64,000 nt of DNA from Actinomycetota bacterium. GTDB lineage: Bacteria > Actinomycetota > Actinomycetes > Propionibacteriales > Propionibacteriaceae. The stretch is from positions 1-64,000 of the forward strand of contig JAIUOT010000007.1 of NCBI GenBank assembly GCA_020161015.1. Reading direction: 5' to 3'. The translations under genes were made by a program, and so were the position numbers. Below are positions 58,100 to 64,000 of this stretch, piece after piece (within the stretch, counting starts at the first letter, position 1; every line of letters begins with the position of its first letter). The notes under the pieces are model-generated. The model was given only the letters and a program-made list of their open reading frames with translations, was not told where the DNA came from and searched no databases.

Positions 58100-58933
58100 C
58101 TACCGGCGGAAGTAGGACAGGATCCGCAGGATCTCGATGTAGAGCCACACCATGGTGACGGTGAGGCCGAACGCGCCTCGCCACGACTCCGACGCCGGGG
58201 CGCCCATGGCGACGCCCTGCTCGATGTAGTCGAAGTCGAGGATGAGGTTGAACACGGCCAGCCCGACGCCGATGGCGGAGGCGAGCAGCGCGAACACGGT
58301 CAGGTTGCCCGCGGTGATGAAGGCCAGGCCGAAGAACGACAGGATGAAGTTCACCAGCAGCACGCCGGCGTAGGCCATCGTGCCGATCATGACCATCCGG
58401 CGGAACTTGCTGCTCACCTTGATCCGGAAGAACTTGTAGGCACCCAGCGTCATCGCCGCGGCGACGAACGTGCCGGCGACCGCCGGCAGGACGATGCCCG
58501 GATAGCTGTACTCGAAGAACTTGCTCACCGCGCCGATGAACACGCCCTCGATCGCGGCGTAGGCGAGAACGAAGGCCGGGTTGACCGCACGGCGGAAGCT
58601 CACCAGGAGCACGACGCCGAAGGACACCAGTCCACCGACCACCCAGGCAGCGGTGAGCAGCGGGCCCACCGGGACGAACACGAACGTGAGCGCGGCGACC
58701 GCCATCAGCGTGCCGATGGTGAGCGCGGTCTTGGTGATCACGTCGTCGATCGTCATCCGCCCGGCGACCGGGGCCGGGGCGAACTGGGCAGCGTTCGGGT
58801 CGTAGCCGTACGGCTGGCCGGGGTACTGGCCGGGAGCCTGACCGGGGTACTGGCCGTACTGGCCGGGCACCTGCTGGGCAGGCTGCACCTGCCAGGTGTC
58901 AGGTCGCGACAGGACCGGGTTGTTGCTGCGCAT
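58100..58933 (-). CDS. Bax-inhibitor-1/YccA family membrane protein
   Basis: A 277-residue protein. The first 60 residues are glutamine/proline/glycine-rich with GQYPGQ-like repeats, then seven TM helices. The family signature is in the C-terminal helices (LILDFDYIEQGVAMGAP, WLYIEILRILSYF). Related proteins affect proton or calcium leak; function here unknown. The ATG at 58933 has an AAGGAGGAAT ribosome-binding site. Confidence 0.9.
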   Translation of the reverse strand: MRSNNPVLSRPDTWQVQPAQQVPGQYGQYPGQAPGQYPGQPYGYDPNAAQFAPAPVAGRMTIDDVITKTALTIGTLMAVAALTFVFVPVGPLLTAAWVVGGLVSFGVVLLVSFRRAVNPAFVLAYAAIEGVFIGAVSKFFEYSYPGIVLPAVAGTFVAAAMTLGAYKFFRIKVSSKFRRMVMIGTMAYAGVLLVNFILSFFGLAFITAGNLTVFALLASAIGVGLAVFNLILDFDYIEQGVAMGAPASESWRGAFGLTVTMVWLYIEILRILSYFRR

Positions 58934-59070
58934 GTGTCTGCATTCCTCCTTGGATGGGCGACGGGCTCGCCGTCGTCGGGTTCCATGGTAGGGAACGCTG
59001 CTGAGAGCCTGCTGTGTTCCCCCCTGATCGTCCCCTGACCGGGACCCTGATCCGCTCGGGGACAGGCAGG

Positions 59071-59349
59071 TCAGTGCGGGAAGGGTGGCTCGCGACCCCA
59101 GACGGCAGAGCCCTTCCGGTTGGGACCGGAACTCGCCGGGCACGCGGCCGCGGTGGAGGCCGCGGCCCCCGCTGCACTGTCGATCGTCCGGTACACCACC
59201 CGGTCGCCCACGATCGTGCCGCAGTAGCGACCGTCCGGATCGAACACCTTCCCGCTGCGGACCAGACCGAGGTAGCGGCCCGATCTGGCGTGGAGGTGCT
59301 CCCCCACCAGCTGGAGGAGCTGGCCGCTCTTGGTGTACAGGTCATCCAT
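59071..59349 (-). CDS. Small beta-repeat protein (YxG repeats)
   Basis: A 92-residue protein. Residues 22-55 hold repeating units GRYLGLVRSGKVFDPDG and GRYCGTIVGDRVVYR, resembling four-fold beta-flower type proteins. The C-terminus is alanine-rich and then basic. It overlaps the GH130-like stop by 8 bases, so it is the fourth gene of the carbohydrate operon. Function unknown. Confidence 0.75.
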   Translation of the reverse strand: MDDLYTKSGQLLQLVGEHLHARSGRYLGLVRSGKVFDPDGRYCGTIVGDRVVYRTIDSAAGAAASTAAACPASSGPNRKGSAVWGREPPFPH

Positions 59350-60826
59350 CGAGGACTTCCTCCCTTTCGTGCTGTCGAACCTGTGGGGAGAGCAGGCGGG
59401 CCATCAGCTCGGACAACGGAACCGACGCGACACGGGTTCGCTGGTCGGCGACCGCGTAGGGGATCCACACGATGTCGTCGTGAAGGATCGAGCCGCAGCT
59501 GTAGACGACGTTGGGCACGTACCCCATGGAGGCGTCGTCCGGCGGCAGCAGCGGTCCATCCAGCGAGCCGAGCACCTTCGTCGGATCCTCGAGGTCGAGC
59601 AGGAGCGCTCCCAGCCCATACGCCCTCATCGCCCCCACGCCGTGAGTGATGACGAGCCAGCCCGCCTCGGTCTCCATCGGCGGACCACACGTCCCGCTCT
59701 GCACGATCTCCCAGGATCGCCGCTTGTAGTGCAGCGGCACCTCCTCGGACCAGTCGAGGCCGTCTGCCGACGTGGTGAGTGCCAGCGTCTCCCCGTCGCT
59801 CCGGGCCAGGGCCAGGTGGGCGGCCCCGACCGGGCGCGGGAAGAGCGCGAGCCCCTTCGTCCCCGCGCACCGACCGGTGAGCCGATGGACGGCAAACGAT
59901 CGGAAGTCCGCGGTGACGAGCAGTCGGGTGGCGATGGAGTGACCGTCGTAGGCCGTGTAGGTCCCCCGGTACTCCCCGGCCCCGAAGCGGACGAGGCGGA
60001 GGTCCTCGATGCCGTGTGCCTCCTCGTCCGCGACTGGCACGAGAACCCGCTGGCTGAGGGCACTGGCCCGGCTGAATGTCGCACGGTACGCCGAGCCAGC
60101 GACCACCCTGATGGCCTCCTGTTCGCCTCGAGCCTGTGCGTGGTGCAGCAGGTCCGGCGACAGGTTCTGCACGGCCCTCTCGATCGCTCCGCTGCCGAAC
60201 TGCTCGGGAAGGGCCTGCAGCACGGTCCTGGCAAGCTCGTCCGTGCTTCCCCGGTGCTCCAGGGCCCGGAGGAGGTGCGCCCGATCCCAGAGCCCCTCGT
60301 CGATCCGGGCGAGGTGGAGCGGCGCGGCACGCTCCGCGAACACCCACGTGCGCCCAGGCCCGATCACCGCCTCGCAGAAGCCGATCGAGGACCGGTGCCC
60401 CTCGCCGATCAGCCGGAGGGAGACGACCACCCGAAGCTGTCCCGCCAGGAGGGCGGACTGGTCGGGGTGTGCCACAACGCTCGGGTTGCAGACACAAGCA
60501 CCCTCCGGAGCAACCTCGGCGCTGAACACCGCGCCGAGCGCGATGCCCAGGTTGTCGTCAGGGGGGAAATCCAGGTCGGGGCGGATGGTTCGGGCGTGCC
60601 GGCGCAGGTCGTCCTCCAGGTACGGGTGGCGCGTGCCGTAACGCTCCCGCACGTCCGCCGCGATCGCCGAGAGCTCGCCGGGAGGCAGCGCCAGGAGCCG
60701 TTCGAGCACCCCCTGGGTACGCGAGGGAGAGCCCGGTGTCGCCTCACCCGGAAGGAAGAGCCGCAGGATCACCCTCGCCGGATCCGCACACACCTCGACC
60801 CCGGCATCAGCGAGTTCCGGGGTCAT
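59342..60826 (-). CDS. GH130-like glycosidase/phosphorylase
   Basis: A 494-residue protein. The C-terminal two-thirds is a five-bladed propeller of the GH130 type: the catalytic aspartate region is GIEDLRLVRFGAGEYRGTY (D275), and SGTCGPPMETEAGWLVITHG and SMGYVPNVVYSCGS follow. Usual GH130 enzymes have EDPR; here the proline is replaced by leucine. Residues 1-170 are a helical domain not seen in short GH130s. The family cleaves beta-mannosides with phosphate, but substrate is not shown. ATGA overlap with the toroid gene. Confidence 0.82.
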   Translation of the reverse strand: MTPELADAGVEVCADPARVILRLFLPGEATPGSPSRTQGVLERLLALPPGELSAIAADVRERYGTRHPYLEDDLRRHARTIRPDLDFPPDDNLGIALGAVFSAEVAPEGACVCNPSVVAHPDQSALLAGQLRVVVSLRLIGEGHRSSIGFCEAVIGPGRTWVFAERAAPLHLARIDEGLWDRAHLLRALEHRGSTDELARTVLQALPEQFGSGAIERAVQNLSPDLLHHAQARGEQEAIRVVAGSAYRATFSRASALSQRVLVPVADEEAHGIEDLRLVRFGAGEYRGTYTAYDGHSIATRLLVTADFRSFAVHRLTGRCAGTKGLALFPRPVGAAHLALARSDGETLALTTSADGLDWSEEVPLHYKRRSWEIVQSGTCGPPMETEAGWLVITHGVGAMRAYGLGALLLDLEDPTKVLGSLDGPLLPPDDASMGYVPNVVYSCGSILHDDIVWIPYAVADQRTRVASVPLSELMARLLSPQVRQHEREEVLDG

Positions 60827-61860
60827 CGCCGAGGTCCCGGCAGGGCCCGCACGTGCTGGAGGGTCCCCAGTGCGGCCAAGGTCGATTCCGCCCCGCAGTT
60901 CTGGTTGCGTCCCTGGGGCTCGAGGCCGTCGTGCCCCGCACCGGTCGCGCTGTCGTACATCACGACCCGGCCGTCGTTCGCGCCCAGGAACCACGCCCAC
61001 GCGAGGTGGACCCTTCGAGCCCAGGAGGCGTCGCCGGTCACCTCTGCGGCGTGCGCGCAGGCGTCGGCGATGACCCCAGGCTCGATCGGCTGCTGATCCC
61101 ACAGCGGGCCGTCCTCACCCGGGCTGCGGCCGGCCGTGCCCGTGACCGAAAGATGGTCACGACCCCCGGTTTCGATCTCCAGGAGCGCGGCGAGCATCCG
61201 GAGCCCCTCGCGGACGTCGTCGACCCGTCGCAGCACTCCACCGCCGTAGACGAGGGCGTCACACAGGGAGGCGTTCGCGTAGCGGAGTCGAGGTTCGGGC
61301 CACGCCCACCCGGGTGCCGATCCGCGGGGAATGCGGTCGAGGCAGTCGGTCAGCAGGGCATGAGCCGGCCCGGGGAGATCGGCCCTTCCGCGGAGGAAGT
61401 CCGCCGCACCGATCGCGGCGAACGCGGCGGCACGGACGTCCACCGTGCGCGAGCGCGTCGCCCTCAGGAACACCCGGGTGGCCCGATGTCGAAGAGTCCG
61501 GGTCGACCCGGCCCGGGCAGCGAAGCCCAGCGCCTGGACGGTCCGTCCCCAGCAGTCGCCGGTACTCAGGTCGGCCGACCACTCCCCGGACACCGCCCTG
61601 CGGTTTCGCACCGACCCGTCATCGGTCACCGCGCCCTCGAGGAAGGTGAGGTAGGTCTGGGCAGCCTCGTCGAGCGACCGCGTCCTCACCGGCTCCCGCA
61701 GGACCACGACGAGCGCTCGCGCGACGTCGTCGGCGCAGTAGCCGTGTTCACGGCGGGCCGTCGTGAACGAGGCGTGCTCGAACACCCCGTGATGATCGGT
61801 GAGGCGGAGCAGGTGGCTGAACACCGGGGGCGGGGCGATCGTCCGCACGAGCACGCTCAC
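60823..61860 (-). CDS. Glycosyltransferase-associated helical-toroid protein
   Basis: A 345-residue protein built of repeated helix pairs (YCADDVARALVVVLRE, AAQTYLTFLEGAV, DCWGRTVQALGFAARA, AAAFAAIGAADFLRG), consistent with an alpha/alpha toroid like six-hairpin glycosidases. No catalytic residues are identified. GTGA overlap with the glycosyltransferase upstream and ATGA with the GH130-like gene downstream. A paralogue starts at 63307 on the plus strand. The pairing of helical protein, glycosyltransferase and GH130 suggests synthesis or remodelling of a mannose-type polymer (inference). Confidence 0.7.
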   Translation of the reverse strand: MSVLVRTIAPPPVFSHLLRLTDHHGVFEHASFTTARREHGYCADDVARALVVVLREPVRTRSLDEAAQTYLTFLEGAVTDDGSVRNRRAVSGEWSADLSTGDCWGRTVQALGFAARAGSTRTLRHRATRVFLRATRSRTVDVRAAAFAAIGAADFLRGRADLPGPAHALLTDCLDRIPRGSAPGWAWPEPRLRYANASLCDALVYGGGVLRRVDDVREGLRMLAALLEIETGGRDHLSVTGTAGRSPGEDGPLWDQQPIEPGVIADACAHAAEVTGDASWARRVHLAWAWFLGANDGRVVMYDSATGAGHDGLEPQGRNQNCGAESTLAALGTLQHVRALPGPRR

Positions 61861-62993
61861 CGGGCCGCCCTTTCCAGTGCGGCACCGGTCAACAGGCCCC
61901 GGAACCGCTCCGCGGCCCGCGGCCAGCTGTTGGCCATGGCGAGGTCCTGGGCGGACGCCTTGGCCGCGACCGCATACGTAGGGTCGCCCAGCACCCGCTG
62001 GATGGCCCTGGCGATCTCCGTCGGGCGCCGGTGGCCCACCAGGATCCCTCCACCGTCGGCGAGCAGCTCCATCGCGTGCGGGAACCGGGTCGCGATCAAG
62101 ACCTTCCCGGCGGCGGCGGCCTCGGCCAGCACGCCCGACGTCGCCTGCTCTGTGGAGTCGTACGGCAGCAGGACCAGCCCTGCGGAGGCGACCTGCGCGG
62201 CGAGTTCATCGGTGTCCTGGTAGCGACCATCGAGCTCGACGTCGGCCGAGACGCGCAGGTCGGCGGCCAGTCCGGTCAGCTGGTCGCGGTACTTCTCACC
62301 GTGCTCCTTGACCACCTTCGGGTGGGTCTGCCCCAACACCCGGTACACCGGCCGCGCGGCGGGCTCCATGCACGCCAGCGCGCGAATCCCCCACTCGATC
62401 CCCTTCCCCGGCCCGATGAGGCCCCAGGTCAGCATCACCGGTCGAGACGCCAACCGGAGGGGCTCGACCGGCCACGGACGGGGGTCGACGCCGTGCGGGA
62501 TGAGCGCCAGCCGGGAGGTGGGGACCGCGTACTGGTCGGCGATGATGTCCTGGGCGGCGTGGGTCATGACCACGACGACGTCCGCCACGTCGGTGACCCG
62601 GCGCAGCACCGCCCGCTGGTGCGGAGTCGCGTCCGCGGGCACCGTGTGCAGGACGACGACCCGGGTGGAGAGGATCCGCTCCAGCACGTCGATGACCTCG
62701 TCACCGTCCGCGCCGCCGTAGATGCCGAACTCGTGCTGCACGATCACCATGTCGCACTGGCTGAGGGCGGCCGCTGCACGCGAGCGTCCCAGTCCGTCGC
62801 CGGGATGCAGGTCGCCGATCACACGGATGCCCGGGCCGGGCGACGGCGCGCCTGCGGGCACGAGGTCGTCGACCCTCACCACGAGTGCCTCGTCGCGGCC
62901 ATCCGCCACCAGCGCGCGGGCAAGGGCGTCGGTGAAGGTCGCCAGACCACAGCGGGTGGGAGGGAAGGTACTGAGGAAACCGAATCGCGTCAT
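61857..62993 (-). CDS. GT4-type glycosyltransferase
   Basis: A 378-residue GT-B glycosyltransferase. The N-terminal FLSTFPPTRCGLATFTDALA and HEFGIYGG are typical of GT4 retaining enzymes; the C-terminal nucleotide-sugar site has WGLIGPGKGIEWGI and the E-x7-E motif in STEQATSGVLAEAAAAG. The donor and acceptor are unknown; mannosyl transfer would fit the GH130 neighbour. First gene of the operon; the ATG at 62993 begins the Rossmann strand. Confidence 0.85.
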   Translation of the reverse strand: MTRFGFLSTFPPTRCGLATFTDALARALVADGRDEALVVRVDDLVPAGAPSPGPGIRVIGDLHPGDGLGRSRAAAALSQCDMVIVQHEFGIYGGADGDEVIDVLERILSTRVVVLHTVPADATPHQRAVLRRVTDVADVVVVMTHAAQDIIADQYAVPTSRLALIPHGVDPRPWPVEPLRLASRPVMLTWGLIGPGKGIEWGIRALACMEPAARPVYRVLGQTHPKVVKEHGEKYRDQLTGLAADLRVSADVELDGRYQDTDELAAQVASAGLVLLPYDSTEQATSGVLAEAAAAGKVLIATRFPHAMELLADGGGILVGHRRPTEIARAIQRVLGDPTYAVAAKASAQDLAMANSWPRAAERFRGLLTGAALERAAR

Positions 62994-63306
62994 GGCGTCT
63001 GCCCATCCGTGAAGGGTGGCGCATCGATCTCGGCGCCACGTGTGGGCGAGACGTCTGCCGATCGGCACCTCTCGCGGAATCGCTGCCGACGATCCGGTTC
63101 GTTGTCCGTCCGCACTACCCGCGGAACGGACGCCTTTGAAGCCCATGGTAGTAGCACCGTCCAACCCGTCCGCTTGGCCACCCGAGTAGCCTGTCCACAG
63201 CGGACAAGCCTGCTCCGACTGCAGGAACCGTTCGCGCGAGGGCTCCACCGGAACGGCCACCACACGACGTTCGCGAGGGCGCTGACCGCCGATGGACACG
63301 TCGTCC
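62994..63306. other. Divergent intergenic region, 313 bases
   Basis: No gene with a credible start or motif. It should hold the divergent promoters of the glycosyltransferase operon and the right-edge toroid gene. A TGTCC / GGACA inverted repeat lies at 63192-63206; no confident -10/-35 pairs were found. Confidence 0.5.
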
Positions 63307-64000
63307 ATGACCGGCGCGAGAGGCGGATGCGACGTGGATGCCACCAATACCGGCCAAGGACCCTCCAGCGCAGGGCAGCTCATCGTGCGCAGCGCGGCCC
63401 CCGCGACACCGACCCGCCGCCTGGAGTTCGCCCACCTCGCCCGCCTGACCGACCGGCACGGCGTGCGGGAGCGCATCGATGACGGACTCTCCGAGCGCCC
63501 CGGTTACCGGACCACGGACGCCGCCCGCGCGCTGGCCCTCGTCCTCCGGGAGGACCGCTACCCGGCCGGCGTGACGGCGACCGCCTACCTCAGCTTCCTC
63601 GAGCACGCCGTTCGCCACGACGGCTCCACCCACCCCCGGATGTCGGCGGTCGGGCAGTGGCAGGCTCCCGATCGCTCGGAGGCGTGGGGGCGGAGCGTCG
63701 CGGCTCTGGGCGCCACGGTCGCCAGCAGTGTGTCGCGACACACCCGTGACCGGGCAACCGACACCTTCCTGCGCGCCGCGAAGTCACGCTCGCTGGACGT
63801 CCGCACGGCAGCTCTGGCCGCGCTCGGGGCCGCGTCCCTCGTCACGTCCCGCACCGACGCGTCGGGCGCGGCTCACTCGCTCCTGTCGGACTGCCTCGAG
63901 ATCATCCCGCGCAAGGCCACCGCCCGCTGGTCGTGGCCCGAAGCGCGACTGGGCCACAACAACGCCGTCCTGTGCGATGCCCTGATCCTTGGCGGGGTCG
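63307..64000 (+). CDS. Second helical-toroid protein, partial (runs off right edge)
   Basis: At least 231 residues, open at the window end. It is a paralogue of the 345-residue toroid protein at 60823-61860: shared pattern includes ARALALVLRE (ARALVVVLRE), TAYLSFLEHAV (QTYLTFLEGAV), WGRSVAALGATV (WGRTVQALGFAA) and SWPEARLGHNNAVLCDALILGGV (WPEPRLRYANASLCDALVYGGG). The alignment runs continuously from about residue 45. Starts at 63307 (ATG), 63334 or 63385 (GTG) are possible; the first is given. It is divergent from the glycosyltransferase operon. Confidence 0.78.
   Translation, partial: MTGARGGCDVDATNTGQGPSSAGQLIVRSAAPATPTRRLEFAHLARLTDRHGVRERIDDGLSERPGYRTTDAARALALVLREDRYPAGVTATAYLSFLEHAVRHDGSTHPRMSAVGQWQAPDRSEAWGRSVAALGATVASSVSRHTRDRATDTFLRAAKSRSLDVRTAALAALGAASLVTSRTDASGAAHSLLSDCLEIIPRKATARWSWPEARLGHNNAVLCDALILGGV

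Follow-up and report, generated by a model that had tools for sequence, protein, structure and literature searches.

A conserved GT4–toroid–GH130 gene cassette and its possible role in an internal mannose glycan

What do the products of a short run of overlapping carbohydrate-related genes make, or break down, in a bacterium of the family Propionibacteriaceae? The run lies near the right end of the window analysed here (the whole 64,000-nucleotide stretch, bases 1–64000 of contig C54 in a genome of 3.67 Mb). It comprises genes for a GT4-like glycosyltransferase, a helical-toroid protein (toroid 1) and a GH130 protein, followed by a gene for a small repeat protein, while a paralogue of the toroid (toroid 2) is read in the opposite direction beyond the GT4 gene. 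We found that the first three genes form a real and conserved cassette. As to its function, we regard the chances as nearly balanced, judging from sequence, that it is a cytosolic cassette making and remodelling an internal mannose oligo- or polysaccharide.

A three-gene cassette conserved across genomes

The core genes, in order of transcription, are these.
61857..62993, minus strand: GT4-like glycosyltransferase, 378 amino acids, with GT-B Pfam domains PF13692 (45.4 bits, cut-off 27) and PF00534 (39.3 bits, above its cut-off)
60823..61860, minus strand: toroid 1, a helical-toroid, enzyme-like protein of 345 amino acids that matches no Pfam or NCBIfam family
59342..60826, minus strand: GH130 protein of a distinct subfamily, 494 amino acids (PF04041, 80.6 bits, cut-off 26; the sole PF04041 match in the genome)

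The preliminary description of this DNA, made from its letters alone, had four genes overlapping by 4–8 bases, and the overlaps are indeed 4, 4 and 8 bases, all on the minus strand. GT4 and toroid 1 share GTGA, with GTG as the start codon of toroid 1, toroid 1 and GH130 share ATGA, and GH130 overlaps the small-protein gene by 8 bases. The overlaps of GT4, toroid and GH130 mean more than chance because the order of these three genes recurs elsewhere; the link between GH130 and the small-protein gene recurs only in L006, the locus most closely related to this operon. The GT4 start was placed at MTRFGFLS and the upstream ATG of the longer open reading frame (ORF) was rejected, since third-position GC is 0.74 in the extra stretch versus 0.90 in the gene. 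A scan of 58700–63600 yielded no terminator-like and no sigma-70-like site, a result that is uninformative given that shuffled sequences average only 0.6 and 0.3 of them.

In a table of 51 core loci, 18 have the GT4 as part of one protein with the toroid, 32 have it as the adjacent gene and one has no GT4; a GH130 lay near the toroid in 40 (of the window's type in 31, another GH130 in 9). A GH94 gene was the partner in eight further loci, and neither partner was present in three, two of which (L064 and L098) sit on contigs of 5.6 and 4.5 kb. The table includes L010 and L064, excludes L120–L129 and L133, and leaves L059 and L062 uncounted as the same records as L007 and L009; it holds near-identical pairs (L082/L083, L008/L010), and its rows are not all independent. 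Because these loci were gathered by toroid similarity they describe the family, and the test of co-occurrence is the reverse search, for which the query was the first 260 residues of GH130, ahead of the stretch matched by Pfam. The toroid search itself, at E 0.001, gave matches in 14 of the 97 genomes of the family sample and in 54 of the 396 of the phylum sample, with long matches in 11 and 36 and short C-terminal matches in the remainder; the short ones were left out of the association tests. In the family sample the reverse search found GH130 in 10/97 genomes (the own genome included), all within the 11 with a long toroid match and in none of the 86 others (Fisher p 9e-13). In the phylum sample it found 15/396, reduced to 14 (own included) when a weak hit in G374 (E 9.5e-4) was dropped, and in 13 of these 14 a long toroid match lies no more than about 3.2 kb away on the contig that carries the GH130 (p 4e-14); the phylum-sample searches scored some 5–6 first-look candidates per genome, and their counts may be low. 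In the one remaining genome, G375, the GH130 lies close to the end of a contig, and the 8.9 kb fetched there holds neither toroid nor GT4. The expectation that all four families would co-occur in other genomes was thereby upheld for GT4, toroid and GH130 and failed for the small protein, which has relatives in five genomes without a toroid.

Cassette loci occur in five phyla. Named relatives come from Microbacterium and Propionibacteriaceae in Actinomycetota, a Chloroflexi bacterium, Sphingobium, Sphingomonas, Novosphingobium, Rhizobium, Sinorhizobium and Devosia in Pseudomonadota, Ilyobacter in Fusobacteriota, and Deinococcus. Searching with a fused GT4-toroid protein matched 77 plasmid records at any length and 25 over at least 80% of the query. 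For the fused proteins that we examined, the annotation reads glycosyltransferase family 4 and nothing more, and no named family matches the toroid; a conserved glycan cassette of five phyla has in this way been masked by annotation.

Predicted activities of the three proteins

In the proposed mechanism, the GT4 would start or extend a chain by transferring a sugar to an acceptor, with mannose donated by GDP-mannose as the most likely case. The toroid, often part of the same polypeptide, would cut this chain, either setting its length or yielding new primers, and the GH130 would work on the chain end by adding, removing or moving beta-1,2-type mannose. The product would be an internal mannose oligo- or polysaccharide serving stress or reserve. 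The small protein has no part in this scheme.

GT4 enzymes are retaining, and alpha bonds are expected of them; the usual motif of the family is E-x7-E. Here the first glutamate is replaced by glutamine (Q283) in all rows of a 50-row alignment, which includes the window protein and leaves out the second GT4 copies of L086, L095 and L098, while the second position, E291, is Glu in 21 rows, Tyr in 20, Asp in 7 and Phe in 2. The subfamily also carries a QHE-G motif. The sole solved match at E 0.001 is the Tll1590 protein (6kih, E 1e-5), and no signal peptide was seen by eye.

The structure model of toroid 1, asked for by the preliminary description, is a confident helical toroid (pLDDT 87.8). Its nearest fold, and its only clearly significant sequence match, is YPO2471 (PDB 7TEM), compared here by PDB sequence and fold alone; YPO2471 differs from it in being longer, in being named an exported protein by its depositors and in not keeping E189 in the alignment. 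The same description had found no catalytic residues in the toroid, a view that has to be revised, as candidates exist: D45, W187 and N196 are present in 50/50 rows, D311 in 48/48 and E325 in 46/48 (rows with a letter), and the acidic and aromatic positions are near-invariant across core rows from five phyla. The broken toroid of L010, the partial one of L064, and L096/L097 were removed from a toroid alignment before rows were counted. Eight large relatives retain D45, W187, Q256, W290, N295, D311 and E325 without exception; GT4 lies beside none of them, and GH130 lies within 4 kb of five (L096 and L114–L117). At all five of these loci one of the neighbours tested is an ABC sugar-uptake component, and together with their large toroids of about 690–970 amino acids they probably represent a mannoside utilisation locus. 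The helical-toroid model and the invariant acidic and aromatic residues suggest that the toroid is probably an enzyme, and it may be of glycoside hydrolase type because of its fold, the invariant acidic residues and the larger relatives in uptake operons. AGE-type epimerases have catalytic His residues, and an epimerase of this type was rejected for the toroid, as no His is invariant in 38 rows and H16 is present in 41/50.

The GH130 subfamily carries an N-terminal extension and an insert. Alignment with solved enzymes and relatives places the catalytic Asp275 within a GxEDxR motif, and K324 and E274–D275 are invariant in 25/25 sequences. A lysine equivalent to Lys199 of BT3780 and a glutamate before the catalytic Asp have been tied to beta-1,2 linkages in the part of PMC4599007 that treats these signatures, which also describes phosphate binding by GH130 phosphorylases through three basic residues. 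In the window's subfamily R342 and H395 are kept and the third basic position is Gln376 in 31/31 members from three phyla, whereas in 12 other GH130 proteins aligned this position is Lys or Arg in eight and Gln in none. That these three positions are the phosphate site is deduced from an alignment in which the BT3780-like member of L096 lacks all three. The closest solved sequences are the beta-1,2-mannobiose/oligomannan phosphorylases 7fip and 9fj8 (E 2e-26 and 4e-26), which, like the phosphorylases Teth514_1788/1789, share the catalytic Asp, the preceding Glu and the beta-1,2 Lys with the window protein. Unlike the beta-1,2-mannan phosphorylases, the window protein has Gln376, the extension and the insert, and it reaches 113 bits where the equivalog cut-off is 450. 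A BT3780-type beta-1,2-mannosidase was also rejected, as R342 and H395 are retained and neither position 376 nor 378 is Glu. Judged by its signatures, the GH130 fits neither the standard phosphorylases nor the hydrolases of BT3780 type. Since one of the three basic positions is Gln, it may not act as an ordinary phosphorylase; the cassette also offers a GH130 subfamily, open to testing, whose phosphate site is altered. Window-type relatives were also seen in L120 (9061–10284) and L121 (7983–9281), where the displayed stretch contains no GT4-toroid gene; one of the two lies within a copper-resistance island, the other next to genes for a universal stress protein, a hexose kinase and a phosphoenolpyruvate synthase.

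Mannose context, known systems and rival readings

Neighbouring genes were counted at 15 plasmid loci with a fused GT4-toroid, taken from the 77 matching records. GH130 is the next gene in 13 of them; in Ilyobacter two GH130 genes immediately precede the fused gene, and in Deinococcus a second GT4 stands between the fused gene and a GH130 annotated as hypothetical. A mannose-1-phosphate guanylyltransferase, mannose-6-phosphate isomerase and/or phosphomannomutase belongs to the same gene run at nine loci, and an AGE-family epimerase/isomerase at two more. These genes of GDP-mannose supply, together with the GH130 signatures, bear out the link to mannose in the preliminary description, and mannose involvement by context is well supported in Pseudomonadota, less so in the phylum of the window. 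At 7/15 loci chaperone genes lie within 10 kb, in islands of two types. In the first (L122, L124, L125 and L129), dnaK, grpE, a DnaJ-type gene, a universal stress protein and Dps occur at all four loci, and Hsp20 and Bax inhibitor at two; these are Sphingomonadaceae plasmids, three of four typed as conjugative, with an integrase preceding the guanylyltransferase gene. In the second type (three loci), groEL stands beside the guanylyltransferase, isomerase and mutase. If the product is an internal mannan, it would serve bacteria as a mannose-based reserve or protectant in the manner of glycogen or Leishmania mannogen, and the plasmid location among chaperone genes would tie the cassette to stress survival.

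In its proposed mode of action the cassette most resembles, among known systems, the mycobacterial methylmannose polysaccharide (MMP) cluster, although it is not a member of that cluster. The portions of PMC9883506 that describe the cluster report that MmpH cuts MMP and ManT extends the pieces; the proposed likeness lies in a GT4 (ManT) encoded with a toroid-fold hydrolase (the endomannosidase MmpH) that recuts the chain for primers. Its authors link MMP to cold adaptation (PMC9883506). The candidate acid of MmpH, Asp47/Asp50, is placed in or near the loop between the first and second helices (PMC9883506), and D44/D45 of toroid 1 are comparably placed, at the start of the second helix. Membership of the cluster was rejected, as the genes of the operon include no 1-O- or 3-O-methyltransferase, the toroid has no sequence link to MmpH (neither profile nor single-sequence searches recovered 7qsj up to E 10, a result that also rejects an MmpH type by sequence), and a GH130 is present instead. 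A further known system, compared by description only, is Leishmania mannogen with GT108: a reserve of beta-1,2-mannan whose turnover is carried out by GH130-like enzymes (PMC8950772). It differs in being eukaryotic, and the description drawn on mentions no toroid or GT4 partner (PMC8950772). A more specific and rather doubtful version of the internal-glycan reading would make the cassette a horizontally mobile bacterial counterpart of mannogen: a stress-linked cytosolic mannan containing beta-1,2 bonds, a GT4-toroid polymerase-hydrolase, and an exchangeable GH130 or GH94 trimming partner, GH94 being the glucose version. The substitution by GH94 in eight loci suggests such an exchangeable partner for beta-linked ends; GT4 and toroid are fused in the GH94-linked loci L088–L094, and these loci, with L086, are possibly a glucose version of the cassette. 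If the mannogen-like version were true, the toroid would be the founding member of a new family of glycoside hydrolases, and GH130s with Gln376 would represent a new reaction type.

Several observations weigh against an internal mannose glycan. By family analogy, the GT4 would make alpha-mannosides while the GH130 would act on beta-mannosides, and a simple cycle of making and trimming would need an extra step; a GH38 alpha-mannosidase, encoded downstream of the cassette at the sister loci L007 and L061, would be in keeping with a mixed chain. The first motif glutamate of the GT4 is absent in 50/50 rows and the second in 29/50, and GDP-mannose use by this protein is a guess from sequence. The counterpart of the second glutamate in ManT, E321, is required for activity in the experiments cited from PMC9883506, and the donor of the GT4 is uncertain because its motif glutamates are replaced while ManT needs E321. 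Relatives of the GH130 subfamily are also found without an adjoining toroid, that of G375 included, and in one lineage (L088–L094 and L086) GH94, a family of beta-glucoside type, replaces GH130. The large toroid relatives lack N196, E260 and, mostly, E189. None of the mannose-supply genes is present at 4/15 plasmid loci, and the actinobacterial loci searched hold no ORF matching the plasmid guanylyltransferase, isomerase or mutase; among them only L086 has a sugar nucleotidyltransferase. The stress islands of Sphingomonadaceae fall into about two related types and so amount to about two cases, and the neighbour counts are raw, with no background rate.

The same evidence can be read in other ways. 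That the cassette degrades mannosides of other origin to supply GDP-mannose synthesis, a role suggested for Teth514_1788/1789, seems unlikely to us, even with a Thermoanaerobacter cluster of GT4, mannose-1-phosphate guanylyltransferase and two GH130 phosphorylases that the account in PMC4264767 proposes for GDP-mannose salvage, and with five large toroid relatives beside ABC sugar-uptake genes. The operon in the window has no transporter gene and, by eye, no export signal, the GT4 is fused to the toroid in 18/51 core loci, and salvage would not need the mannose 6-phosphate supply (isomerase, mutase, guanylyltransferase) present at some plasmid loci. Equally improbable, in our estimate, is a product that is no polymer but a small mannosylated solute or glycolipid, which toroid and GH130 finish or recycle. 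Stress islands that include a HAD-IIB phosphatase (resembling PMM in the single case tested) and desaturase genes near L006, L013, L060 and L071 in actinobacteria and in Sinorhizobium would suit such a product, but no acceptor-making or lipid-linking gene recurs among the neighbours tested, and a toroid hydrolase plus a GH130 seems excessive for a disaccharide. It is more improbable still that the toroid is a non-catalytic subunit holding the glycan for the GT4. A fold by itself reveals no function, and toroid 2 stays open despite the loss of several conserved positions; the acidic and aromatic positions are nevertheless near-invariant in five phyla, and seven positions are kept in 8/8 large relatives that have no GT4.

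The small protein, toroid 2 and the flanking sequence

The remaining features of the locus are given below.
59071..59349, minus strand: small protein, 92 amino acids (Pfam Bflower PF21784, 18.1 bits, below the cut-off of 25)
62994..63291, no strand: divergent intergenic region holding the 12-bp perfect palindrome TGCCGATCGGCA
63292..64000, plus strand: window part of toroid 2, whose whole ORF is C54:63292–64440, 382 amino acids, intact
58100..58933, minus strand: Bax inhibitor-1 like membrane protein (PF12811, 254 bits), a neighbour outside the core, 137 bp downstream of the small-protein gene and on the same strand

The small protein consists of three approximate 17-residue repeats and a tail, and its repeat self-match was reached in 19 of 2000 shuffles. 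The weak Pfam match makes a beta-flower possible, a fold described in the part of PMC10584680 that we cite. A relative with 68–70% identity follows the GH130 of L006. In the family sample, strong relatives (E <1e-20) occur in six of 97 genomes including the own, and a seventh match is weak; the five others (L134–L138, in G087, G066, G033, G070 and G042) share 51–73% identity. A toroid match was found in none of these five genomes, and GT4, toroid 1, GH130 and the Bax inhibitor are missing from the 4.7–8 kb fetched around each relative. The small protein is an independent gene that joined the cassette locally and is not part of the core.

Reading on to the right of the window showed that toroid 2 is open for 382 codons and is not a pseudogene. 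Like toroid 1, it matches no Pfam family above cut-off, and its part within the window matches no NCBIfam family. It is 49–50% identical to toroid 1, has a third-position GC of 0.87, and groups with toroid 1 and L006 (support 99/91) on a branch of 0.92 versus 0.18. Four positions have changed (D44 to Thr, Y194 to His, Q257 to Leu and N321 to Thr), and D45, W187, E189, N196, Q256, N295, D311 and E325 are retained. We read it as a fast-evolving, lineage-specific local duplicate under changed constraint and outside the conserved system; L006 has a desaturase-like ORF in its place, and the duplication does not stand as a feature of the system, as the preliminary description had it. Desaturase genes or a partial ORF near the cassette were seen in L006 (1–456), L060 (4089–5366), L071 (5306–6496), L013 (1237–2370) and L101 (12043–13083), as raw counts with no background rate; that of L071 is near the toroid alone.

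The palindrome TGCCGATCGGCA lies at 63055–63066, about 60 bases ahead of the GT4 start, is conserved in L006 and is a possible operator. Genes for GAF-ANTAR regulators stand immediately upstream of the GT4 in L007 (3813–4589), L061 (3210–4112) and L064 (2380–3213).

Toroid 2 ends just ahead of one copy of a 26-bp direct repeat (64445–64470 and 80699–80724, 96%). The repeat overlaps the 3' end of a tRNA-Leu gene (about 80701–80775), and a phage-type integrase lies just inside, so we conclude that an integrative element of about 16.3 kb (C54:64445–80724) has inserted between toroid 2 and tRNA-Leu. By eye, it holds what we take to be a 2199-residue RHS-like ORF, a transposase-like ORF and a relaxase/helicase-like ORF.

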